A stretch of 40,675 nt of DNA from an uncultured Mollicutes bacterium (lineage in GTDB: Bacteria; Bacillota_I; Bacilli_A; Acholeplasmatales; Anaeroplasmataceae): positions 1 through 40,675 of the forward strand of contig CAMELE010000017.1 of NCBI GenBank assembly GCA_945923475.1, written 5' to 3'. The notes under the pieces are model-generated. The model had not been told where the DNA came from and did not search any database. It worked only from the letters and a program-made list of their open reading frames with translations. Made by a program: the position numbers and the translations under genes. Shown one piece after another: positions 31,824 through 37,221 of the stretch; the first letter of the stretch is position 1, and each line of letters begins with the position of its first letter.

Positions 31824-31828
31824 TTTTG

Positions 31829-31918
31829 ATCCATCATTCAAGCTTTAGCACCGAGCTAATATAATTAGGGGTTGCTGAAGGGTCATCGAGCTTGTCTCTC
31901 ACCTTCTCTTTATGGTAT
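31829..31918 (-). promoter_or_regulatory. SAM-I (S-box) riboswitch aptamer
   Basis: On the minus strand the conserved S-box elements appear in order: AUAAAGAG, GAAGGUGAG (P2 and the following stem), AGAC and GC in the loop, GAUGA, CCUUCAGCAACC (P2 3' strand and core), a P3 helix CCCUAA/UUAG, and GGUGCUAA. AGC in the loop can pair with GCU of GGUGCUAA, the pseudoknot of the family. P1 is CCAU/AUGG, extended by GAU/AUC. The usual P4 helix after GGUGCUAA appears absent or very short. SAM binding would stabilise P1, freeing the terminator at 31800. Downstream genes are priA, fmt, the HD-like gene, the TSCPD gene and metK. Confidence 0.92.
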
Positions 31919-31983: not shown

Positions 31984-33225
31984 TTAGATTATTCTTATAT
32001 TTAAAGCAATTTCTTCATCAATTAATTGTGCTCTTAGAAGTGGCTTTGATAAGCTTTTAATAACAAAATACATTAAAGCTGATTGAGGAAGTAAATAAAC
32101 TAAATTCTTAGGTAATTCCATTGTTAATAAATACCAAGAAAATGAAAAGCTGTAATCATTTATAATCCACCACCAAAGTGTTCCAAGAACTGTATTTACA
32201 AATAGATTTACAAATATTCTTGCAAACAAGCACTTCATAAATGAAACTCTCGTTCGATATAAGCACAAGGCATAAATCAAGCCCGATAGCATTGCAGATA
32301 ACGTATAGCCTAGGAAAAATACACCATCTGGTTTAACAATATAGCCAATTATATCCGAACAAAATCCAATCGTAATACCTGCAATCGGTCCATATAGCAT
32401 TGAAATTATACTAAAAACCAAATATCCTATTCCTAGACCTAAATTACCGAATCCAGATGGTAAAGGAATAAATTTAGCACATAATTGTAAAGCAAATAGA
32501 ATTGCTATTGTAACACAATTCCTTAAGGATTTTAGTTCCTTAACTGATGCTTTAAAGTAATTTAAATGAAATGGAGTTTTAAATATCCTTTCATTATCAT
32601 ATGGTAATGTATCTATAAGTGCTTCCTTATAAACAATATGTAAAATCAATAAAATAATTAATGATACTCCAAAACCAATAGCCATTCCATATAGAAAAAA
32701 CACATATTCCTTTTGACTTCCTATATTTACAACAATACTTTCTTCTAAAACCTTCGAATTATCTGATGTAACTTCTTCACCATTTCTTAAAATATATATC
32801 GGATTTTCTGATGAGTCGGTAATCATTCTTTTCATAAATCTTCTAGCCTGTTGCCACGAATTAAATTGCCTTTTTTCAATCCTCAATACAAACAAATCAT
32901 CTTTCTTTTCAATACTAGAGCCTTTTGCTACAGCCCTCGTATCGACATAATCAAAGGACGAATATGGATATTTTTGGGTTTCTTCATTATAACCTTGTAT
33001 TCTTTCTCCTTCAATTTTATCTTTAATTGAAATAATATAATCTTCCGTTACAATTTTGTCTGAATCAAGGCTTGAAGCCTTAAATGTAATCTGATATACA
33101 TCATGTGTCGGATTATAAAAGTAATATATAGAAATAGCCATTATTCCTCCGATAATGATGGACAATAATAAAACAAACATTAGATGTGACTGCACAAATT
33201 TTAAATAATTCTTGATTTTTACCAT
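31984..33225 (-). CDS. folT: FolT-type folate ECF transporter S-component fused to a Wzz-like N-terminal module
   Basis: 413 aa. Residues about 237-413 are an ECF S-component of the folate type: AILFA (241-245) is the AxxxA contact motif of helix 1. PSGFGNLGLGIGYLVFSI, MLYGPIAGITIGFCSDIIGYI and FFLGYTLSAMLSGLIYAL are typical FolT stretches. Such subunits bind folate and use shared EcfA/A'/T energising proteins, not in this window. The first 200 residues are extra: one helix (15-37), a soluble, predicted extracytoplasmic domain (38-170) and a second helix (174-199), a topology like Wzz/YveK chain-length proteins. The THF riboswitch directly upstream supports the substrate. ATG 33225; its GGAGG lies in the riboswitch P1 stem. 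Confidence 0.85.
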   Translation of the reverse strand: MVKIKNYLKFVQSHLMFVLLLSIIIGGIMAISIYYFYNPTHDVYQITFKASSLDSDKIVTEDYIISIKDKIEGERIQGYNEETQKYPYSSFDYVDTRAVAKGSSIEKKDDLFVLRIEKRQFNSWQQARRFMKRMITDSSENPIYILRNGEEVTSDNSKVLEESIVVNIGSQKEYVFFLYGMAIGFGVSLIILLILHIVYKEALIDTLPYDNERIFKTPFHLNYFKASVKELKSLRNCVTIAILFALQLCAKFIPLPSGFGNLGLGIGYLVFSIISMLYGPIAGITIGFCSDIIGYIVKPDGVFFLGYTLSAMLSGLIYALCLYRTRVSFMKCLFARIFVNLFVNTVLGTLWWWIINDYSFSFSWYLLTMELPKNLVYLLPQSALMYFVIKSLSKPLLRAQLIDEEIALNIRII

Positions 33226-33235
33226 AAAAAAAGAC

Positions 33236-33348
33236 CTCCATAGAGATCCACTTAATATTATGTGGATCGCAATGCCACCGCGAGTTTCTACTCTTCGTCC
33301 AACACATTATCCTAGGTGATGGCACTTTACGCGACATTGTCTATGGAG
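33236..33348 (-). promoter_or_regulatory. Tetrahydrofolate (THF-I) riboswitch
   Basis: On the minus strand P1 is a perfect 9-bp pair (CUCCAUAGA with UCUAUGGAG), and its 3' strand contains the folT ribosome binding site GGAGG. Inside are P2 (CAAUG.UC with GG.CAUUG and GCG with CGC), the conserved GCGUAAAGUG, P3 (CCA.CAC with GUG.UGG), and the ACGAAG-GAG/CUC hairpin. GCGGUGGCAUUGCGAUCC follows, matching the THF consensus end. GGAU in the P3 loop can pair with AUCC of the junction, the known pseudoknot. An extra hairpin GAUCCAC/GUGGAUC would compete with it. Folate binding should hide the ribosome binding site. Confidence 0.9.
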
Positions 33349-33350
33349 AC

Positions 33351-34159: not shown

Positions 34160-34830
34160 TATTTTAATGCTCCTTCTAGCATTGCAATATATGCTAATTC
34201 TATTTTTAGTCTAGCTTTTGACTCATCATCCTTAGCCATATGTAAAAACTCTTGATACATTTTTTTCTTATTTGCAATTATTTCCTTAAACAAAGGAGAT
34301 TGCTCACGTCTTAATATTGGCCCAAATTTCATATCTAATAGGTCATATTTAACCTTTTTAGCCTCATCAAAATGACATACAATAATCTCATAATTATGCT
34401 TTCCATCCTTGATTAAATACTCATTATCAAAGACAAAATAGTTAGAAATCAAATAAGCTCTAAGCTTATCAACATCTGACTGAGCAGCTAAAATTATTTT
34501 TTTAAATTTTTTTGCCTTTTCATAATCATTAGATATGATTGATTTAATAAGTAAACCACCCATGCCTGCAATAAGCAAGGTGTCTGTTTTTCCTTCAAAT
34601 TTATTTAAACCATCGGAAAGAATAAATTCACATGAATCTAGTAATCCCTTAGAAGCACAATTATTTTTAGCGTTCGTTAATGGGCCCTCATTAATATCTA
34701 GTAAATAGCAATGCTTTACCTGATAGTCTTCAATAGCCTTAATTGCTACATAGCCATGGTCACATCCACAATCAACCAATGACTCAGACCCTTGAGTTAA
34801 AGATGCTAAAAAATCAATGCGATCTATCAT
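34159..34830 (-). CDS. trmK: tRNA (adenine-22-N1)-methyltransferase TrmK
   Basis: TrmK methylates A22 of certain tRNAs with SAM. The 223-aa product begins [31 protein letters not shown] (SAM-binding motif I). It has [13 protein letters not shown] and the family motif [10 protein letters not shown], followed by a helical C-terminal domain. In Firmicutes trmK regularly follows rpoD, as here, where its ATG overlaps the rpoD stop (ATGA). In Bacillus the next gene is the Nif3-like yqfO; here an esterase takes that place. Confidence 0.95.
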
Positions 34831-36005
34831 TTTTTAATTAAGAAATCCTTTAATTTCTTTGAACGAGATGGATGTTTTAATTTACGTAATGCTTTAGCTT
34901 CAATTTGACGAATACGCTCACGAGTAACTCCAAATTCCTTACCTACCTCTTCAAGCGTTCTTTCTCTACCATCTAATAAACCAAAACGAAGTCTTAATAC
35001 TCTTTCTTCACGATCAGTTAGTGTAGCTAAAACATTATCAAGCTCTTCTCTAAGCTTCTTTTGAGCAGTATACTCATATGGATCAAGAGTATTTTGATCA
35101 GCAACGAAATCTCCTAAAGAAGAATCCTCTTCCTCACCTACAGGTGATTCTAACGAAATTGGCTCTTGAGCAATTTTTTGAATTGCTTGGACCTTCTCAA
35201 CAGTAATATCCATGCGCTTAGCAACCTCTTCAGTAGAAGGCTCTCTACCTAATTCTTGAACTAATTGACGTTGAACACGAACAAGCTTATTAATCGTTTC
35301 TACCATGTGAACAGGAATACGAATTGTACGTGCTTGATCTGCAACAGCTCTAGTTATTGCTTGACGAATCCACCAAGTAGCATATGTTGAGAATTTAAAA
35401 TCCTTTTTCTCCTCAAACTTATCAACAGCACGTAAAAGACCCATATTTCCTTCTTGAATTAAATCTAAAAATTGTAAGCCTCTTCCTGTATATTTCTTCG
35501 CAATAGATACAACTAGCCTTAGGTTTGCCTCGGCAATTTTGTTTTTAGCATCCTCAGCACGCTCAACAATATCAAGCAATTTTTCATATTCTTCTTGTGA
35601 AACTGTATTATTATCGTCATCATCTATAATATCTAGTTTTCTTTGAGCAGCTTGACCCTCTTCAACCATCTTAGCATATTTTTTTTCATCATCTTGGCTT
35701 AATAAAGGGATTTTTCCAATTTCCTTAAGATACATTCTAACAGGATCATCAACCTTAATTGATGGAGGTAAAGTATCAAAATCATCGATTGAAACCTCTT
35801 CAACCTTTGAAGCGTCAAATTCCTCGGTTATAACATCAGCTGGCTCTTCTTCTAAAACACTTATTTTTTTAGAAACCAATTCCTTAACAATTTTAGCATA
35901 TTCCTCAGAATCCTCATCATAAAACTGAGTGATTTCTGCAACTAAAACATAATCTGTTTCTTTACTTTTTTCAATTAATTCTTGTAAAACTGTTTGAAAA
36001 TCCAT
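34827..36005 (-). CDS. rpoD: Primary sigma factor RpoD (SigA)
   Basis: 392 aa. It is the housekeeping sigma that directs RNA polymerase to TTGACA/TATAAT promoters. The N-terminal region resembles a short region 1.1, and region 1.2 includes [11 protein letters not shown]. Region 2 is canonical: [62 protein letters not shown] (W211, W212, Q215, T218). Region 3 follows. Region 4.2 is [33 protein letters not shown]. All residues known to contact the -10 and -35 elements are kept, so this copy is taken as the true SigA. AGGAATT precedes the ATG. It lies 34 bases after its paralogue. Confidence 0.97.
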
Positions 36006-36039: not shown

Positions 36040-37221
36040 TTAGTATTTATTTTTATAAATAAATTCTCTTAGGTTTTTTGATTTTGAAGGATTTTTTAGC
36101 TTTTTTAAGGCTTTAGCTTCAATTTGACGAATTCTTTCTCTAGTTACCCCAAAGATAAGGCCTACCTCTTCTAAGGTCCTTACCCTTCCATCAACAAGGC
36201 CATTTCGTAGCCTTAAAACCTCTGCTTCACGTTCGCTTAGAGTTGATAATACGTAATTAATTTCTTCTCGTAGCTTTTTTTTAGTCGTATATTCATCAGG
36301 ATTTAAAGAATATTTGTCAGGAACGAAATCTTGAAGTGATGATTCATCTTCATCTCCAATTGAAACCTCTAATGATATTGGCTCCAATGAAACCTTTTTA
36401 ATTTCAATGACCTTCTCAGCATCAATGTTTAATCTGTTTGCTAGCTCCTCATTTGTTGGTGAGCGCCCTAGCTCCTGAGTAAGCTTACGCTCTGTTTTAA
36501 CTAATTTATTTATTGTTTCACCCATATGTACAGGTATTCTTATTGTTCGACCTTGATCTGCTATAGCACGATTAATGGCTTGACGAATCCAATAGGTTGC
36601 ATATGTAGAAAATTTACAATTTTTTTCTTCTTCAAATTTATCTACAGCTCTAATAAGACCCATATTACCTTCTTGAATCAAATCCAAAAATTGCAAGCCT
36701 CTTCCTGTATATTTCTTGGCTATAGATACAACAAGCCTTAGGTTTGCTTCTACAATCTTATTTTTAGCATCATCTGATTCTTCTACAATATCCATTAATT
36801 CATTAAATTCTTCTTGTGGTAAATCTTTACCTTCATCTAAATCTAATAAATCAATTTCCTTTTGGGCTTTTTTTCCTTTAGATACAATAGAAAACAGTTT
36901 TTTCTCCTCATCAATTGATAATAACGGAATTAGACCAATTTCTTTTAAATACATTCTTACTGAATCTTCAACATAGATTGAAGGTGAAATTTTATCATAA
37001 TCTTCAATTGAAACCTCTTCAACCTTGGAAACGTCAAACTCTTCATTTACTTGTTCAGGTTCTTCGTCTAAAACATCAATTTTTTTCGAAACAAGTTCCT
37101 CAACAATACTAATATATTCTTTAGAATCCTCGTCAAAAAATTCAGTTATATCTGATACAAGAACATATCCATATTCCTGACCTTTTTTTATTAATACCTG
37201 CTTTTTCTTAGTAAATTCCAT
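36040..37221 (-). CDS. Second RpoD-like sigma-70 factor, tandem paralogue
   Basis: 393 aa, collinear with RpoD over its whole length, including the N-terminal region 1.1-like part, so it arose by tandem duplication. It differs in the promoter-melting and -10-reading helix: [24 protein letters not shown] has Tyr for the first of the two Trp (Y210) and Asn for Thr (N217). In E. coli sigma-70 numbering these correspond to W433 and T440. Region 4.2 ([14 protein letters not shown]) is unchanged, so -35 recognition should be the same. It is 3 bases after dnaG. Codon use and composition do not stand out. It may be a group 2-type sigma for a promoter subset; no function is known. Confidence 0.93.

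Follow-up and report, generated by a model that had tools for sequence, protein, structure and literature searches.

The window (the whole stretch of 40,675 nucleotides that was analysed) carries a folT gene whose product, a folate S-component, is extended at its N-terminus by two membrane helices and an extracytoplasmic domain; the fusion is genuine and widespread in its class. Profile comparisons give good support to the descent of the added module from a polysaccharide co-polymerase via a stand-alone intermediate. The gene is tentatively read as encoding a folate S-component under control of a THF riboswitch, with a co-polymerase-derived module that would serve self-association or positioning. 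Its parts are collected in Table 1.

Table 1: Parts of the fusion gene and its leader (window positions; residue numbers of the 413-residue protein).
Feature	Position	Strand	Basis
folT fusion gene, 413 aa	31984..33225	-	ATG 33225-33223; TIGR04518 match, orthologues
First added transmembrane helix, residues about 7-36/38	33118..33207	-	hydropathy; aligns with TM1 of stand-alone Wzz-like proteins
Extracytoplasmic domain, residues 37-172, predicted beta-alpha-beta-beta-alpha-beta	32710..33117	-	AlphaFold2 model and homology
Second added transmembrane helix, residues about 173-198/208	32632..32709	-	hydropathy
Cytoplasmic linker, residues 199-232, motif DNxxIFxTPFHxxY	32530..32631	-	comparison with members without ectodomain
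FolT S-component, residues 233-413	31984..32529	-	TIGR04518 match; A241xxxA245, D291, Y307, T308, N344 and K373 kept
THF riboswitch aptamer	33270..33339	-	RF01831, 32.6 bits, E 1e-4; under Rfam cut-off 36
Outer stem of leader, pairing UCUCCAUAGA with UCUAUGGAGG	33235..33349	-	fold -40.5 kcal/mol, z -2.94

Frame, spread and origin of the fusion

The gene is a single uninterrupted frame of the length and position given in the earlier note. Hydropathy of the window protein indicated a polar segment, about 136 residues long, that separates the two added helices and is followed, after the second, by the helices of the S-component; the earlier description of residues 1-200 as helix, soluble outside region and helix is thus borne out (residues 1-198, ectodomain of 136 residues).

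The same pair of domains was sought, as had been proposed, in related genomes, and identical architecture was found in 50 species of five families of the class; this number is a lower bound, the class and phylum searches having sampled about 400 genomes each. One relative, 81% identical across the entire length, has the same frame and junction. In the window's family, open frames and N-terminal alignments assigned the fusion to 41 of the 50 genomes with a FolT match; of the other nine, seven belong to a single genus and have a shortened form, and the last two are chimeric or truncated at a contig end. Elsewhere the fusion was found in a second family of the order (three species), in families f21 (four), f11 (one) and f32 (one), and, beyond the 50 species, on one IMG/VR contig. 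The view that this is a real fusion and no misassembly of two genes was confirmed: an assembly or sequencing artefact that joins two genes does occur in relative L038, but recurrence of one junction in 50 species, one of them so similar over its full length, makes such an origin practically inconceivable here. The RING finger that replaces the N-module in L038 (coding stretch L038:746-918) was rejected as an assembly chimera of the metagenome, because L113 has the normal module and 99% identity from the junction onward.

A FolT-domain tree, quickly built and with long branches to the outgroup, sets the fused clade apart from the plain FolT of families f19 and f22 (SH-aLRT 99); plain S-components of sister family f2, without N117 and K145 of FolT, were excluded as doubtful FolT. 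The fusion trait needs two changes on this tree, apparently one gain and one loss, which suggests a single origin. The ectodomain is absent and FolT kept in seven of the eight species of one genus; a role of the ectodomain is therefore not essential everywhere. These members retain a two-helix hairpin and the linker motif; their folT, where examined, is preceded by rpoD, methyltransferase and hydrolase genes, no separate N-module gene was found directly upstream of folT in this genus, and the three of these loci that were scanned (L041, L044, L045) have no THF aptamer at or above the cut-off. Plain FolT of family f19 also has a version of the linker motif, which therefore seems older than the fusion.

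Descent and fold of the N-terminal module

A profile built from 29 N-modules detected, in the same bacteria, stand-alone proteins about 380-490 residues long, with a helix close to either terminus and an ectodomain longer than that of the module. Several score above the Pfam Wzz cut-off and others below it, and some of their genes adjoin EpsG, Wzy_C or glycosyltransferase genes. As a group (L084-L103, L107, L108, L111) they are unusual co-polymerases. The N-module was aligned with them by hhalign at 98.7% (E 4e-16, TM1 included), and the ectodomain alone at 97.2% (E 3e-11); reversed decoys gave at most 3.1%. Profile-profile comparison of the stand-alone set with canonical YveK/Wzz gave 97.3%, only across TM1 and its surroundings; direct comparison of the N-module with canonical Wzz gave 30%, TM1 only. 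One fused member matches TIGR01006, the chain-length determinant family, at 5e-4, and four of the 29 N-modules match PF02706 weakly (best 0.068); the window protein has no Pfam Wzz (PF02706) match. The module had been called Wzz-like in the earlier note; this stands by homology through the stand-alone paralogues and the TIGR01006 match, and not by a Pfam match of the window protein itself.

AlphaFold2 (three sequences, shallow) gave for residues 36-172 the order beta-alpha-beta-beta-alpha-beta with mean pLDDT 71 and pTM 0.67. This ferredoxin-like order is that of co-polymerase base domains. Foldseek searches with the whole model and with the ectodomain (models from the same three sequences, shallow) gave no significant match, Wzz included, and comparison of the N-profile with PDB sequences gave nothing convincing. 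The structure prediction and structural search proposed for the first 200 residues thus yielded a fold order and no structural match. Across 44 fused proteins, FolT is the best conserved part (median pairwise identity 50%), followed by the linker (38%) and the ectodomain (18%); F121 is the one ectodomain residue kept in at least 85% of them, and no polar residue there is conserved. Such low identity, with the lone F121, is more in keeping with a structural domain than with one that binds folate.

FolT domain, leader and gene neighbourhood

The FolT motifs noted earlier in the C-terminal part were verified by the profile match: TIGR04518 matches residues 233-393 of the window protein (E 4.2e-25, 88.4 bits, cut-off 60) and all 44 aligned fused members, and FolT chains of the PDB match the window protein at about 1e-18. 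The AXXXA motif, required for docking on EcfT (PMC11109136), is present in helix 1 as A241-I-L-F-A245, with small residues there in most relatives. Alignment with EfFolT showed D64, F80 (as Y), T81, N117 and K145 to be kept in the window FolT; R26 probably corresponds to K251. Almost all fused members have Gly in place of K36 (Lys persists in the one from family f11); T121 is replaced by Gly (Glu in f3) and R142 mostly by Ser, otherwise by Ala or Glu; K36 and R142 of EfFolT bind the glutamate moiety of folate (PMC4525288). Judged from the alignment, the pterin side of the pocket is kept and three glutamate-tail contacts are gone, so an effect on substrate range is conceivable.

EcfT (PF02361) is encoded elsewhere in the window genome (G000:C5, E 6.7e-38), together with three further S-component genes, as expected of a group II ECF transporter with its shared module. 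Profile search found no DHPS (PF00809) in the three genomes of the host genus; uptake is therefore probably its source of folate, the host is probably a folate auxotroph, and the fused FolT is probably the route by which folate enters this genus. Plain S-components of sister families (L055-L061) are without N117 and K145 of FolT and possibly have a different folate-related substrate; at least one of them, L056, has a strong THF riboswitch (73 bits).

The aptamer of the window leader is credible below the Rfam cut-off because 14 of 20 related loci scanned reach the cut-off (36-77 bits), 13 of these 14 before a fused gene; at loci whose coordinates were compared, the aptamers sit in the folT leader. 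In the predicted fold (z -2.94), UCUCC in the outer stem is base-paired to GGAGG, the ribosome-binding site at 33235-33239, and so covers it; the start codon is therefore well placed, in line with the earlier argument that a ribosome-binding site embedded in the riboswitch fixes the start. Two tandem THF aptamers (L006:2712-2805 and 2833-2926, -), both above the Rfam cut-off, were observed upstream of the fused folT in a related genus.

Neighbours of the fusion gene in the window, named from sequence, are priA, fmt, a trmK-like methyltransferase, a hydrolase and rpoD; there is no polysaccharide gene among them. A cell-wall link was considered and rejected: the window genome has transpeptidase genes, but none were found in several other fusion carriers. 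Between folT and priA lies a SAM riboswitch (57 bits, 31828-31918, -), and a SAM aptamer follows folT in eight related loci scanned. Downstream of this riboswitch priA, fmt, two further genes and metK run on the same strand, which suggests a SAM-controlled metK operon that includes priA. Two adjacent, similar RpoD-like sigma-factor genes (34827-36005 and 36040-37221, -; 392 and 393 aa) were also noted.

Proposed role and comparison with known systems

In the reading that we tentatively prefer, a polysaccharide co-polymerase paralogue of the Wzz/MPA1 type would have supplied a membrane hairpin and its extracytoplasmic, ferredoxin-like domain, which were joined once to the N-terminus of FolT. 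Co-polymerases oligomerise. The added domain would likewise self-associate outside the membrane and so cluster or position FolT, and the cytoplasmic linker would leave FolT free to topple and to dock with the shared ECF module; the domain itself would be no folate receptor. Unlike the fusion, its spread, the homology and the conservation of FolT, this clustering or positioning role is one that we infer. It is ranked as likeliest, before a cap over the pocket and a near-neutral addition, with capture of free folate last.

A cap in the manner of CbiN, the ectodomain lying above the outward-facing folate pocket and aiding substrate loading or gating, is possible but doubtful. CbiN consists of two helices and an extracytoplasmic loop over the pocket of CbiM, and truncation of the loop impairs transport (PMC7689651); replacement of the glutamate-moiety residues K36 (by G) and R142 (by S, A or E) in the fused clade is consistent with a cap, which could offset the contacts lost by the window FolT. 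Against a cap, no polar residue of the ectodomain is conserved, and neither K36 nor R142 has returned in the genus that lost the domain. S also occupies position 142 in the two plain FolT sampled from family f22, so the loss of R142 is not tied to the fusion. The fuller version, in which a recruited co-polymerase domain caps or gates the pocket and matching changes of the tail contacts admit different folates, e.g. reduced or polyglutamylated ones, is unlikely. We give similarly little credit to a hairpin of little or no dedicated function, which would merely aid insertion or be near neutral and would persist because it shares the regulated start site: low conservation and clean loss in seven species of one genus agree with it, but a 200-residue segment is long to be useless, and its frame is intact in 50 species of five families. 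Capture of folates outside the cell by the ectodomain, with transfer to FolT, was suggested in the earlier note and appears very improbable; the extracytoplasmic position and the altered tail-binding residues of FolT would suit it, but the domain is homologous to co-polymerases, the searches made gave no hint of a solute-binding protein or fold, the ectodomain evolves fastest with a Phe as its sole near-invariant residue, and most species of one genus have dropped it and kept FolT. The further proposal of a new class of ECF substrate-capture unit was not borne out.

S-components are thought to topple in the membrane, leaving the ECF module in each cycle; one with a folded domain held outside by two extra helices offers a natural probe of the freedom that toppling requires. 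The fusion is also a rare case of an envelope-polysaccharide domain shifted to vitamin uptake. S-components dock dynamically on a shared module (PMC7755397), and such an anchor could affect this docking. The literature search (little reach into subscription papers) found no paper that pairs FolT with Wzz or reports an ectodomain on an S-component, nor a published family with this exact architecture.

Among known systems, an S-component fold extended by an N-terminal helix and other domains occurs in the 5TMR sensor histidine kinases (PMC11109136), but the additions there are cytoplasmic signalling domains and these kinases lack the AXXXA motif. CbiN/NikN and fused CbiMN of the group I metal ECF transporters share two helices with an extracytoplasmic element that serves an S-component and is sometimes fused to it; CbiN differs in its short flexible loop and in metal transport, and the parallel is one of topology alone (from PMC7689651). 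The Wzz/MPA1/YveK co-polymerases (PF02706, TIGR01006) share the order, predicted for the window module, of transmembrane helix, extracytoplasmic alpha/beta domain and transmembrane helix, with homology detectable through the stand-alone paralogues of the same bacteria; the window module differs in being joined to a vitamin transporter with no polysaccharide gene alongside, and the fused ectodomain is shorter than in the paralogues. FolT (TIGR04518; EfFolT 4z7f, LbFolT 4huq, LdFolT2 5jsz) shares the six-helix S-component with the AXXXA motif, by alignment the Asp/aromatic/Thr contacts to the pterin and the Asn and Lys of the tail side, the THF riboswitch and an ECF module elsewhere in the genome (here judged from EcfT); the window protein is set apart by replacement of the residues equivalent to EfFolT K36, T121 and R142 and by its 200-residue N-terminal membrane and extracytoplasmic module.
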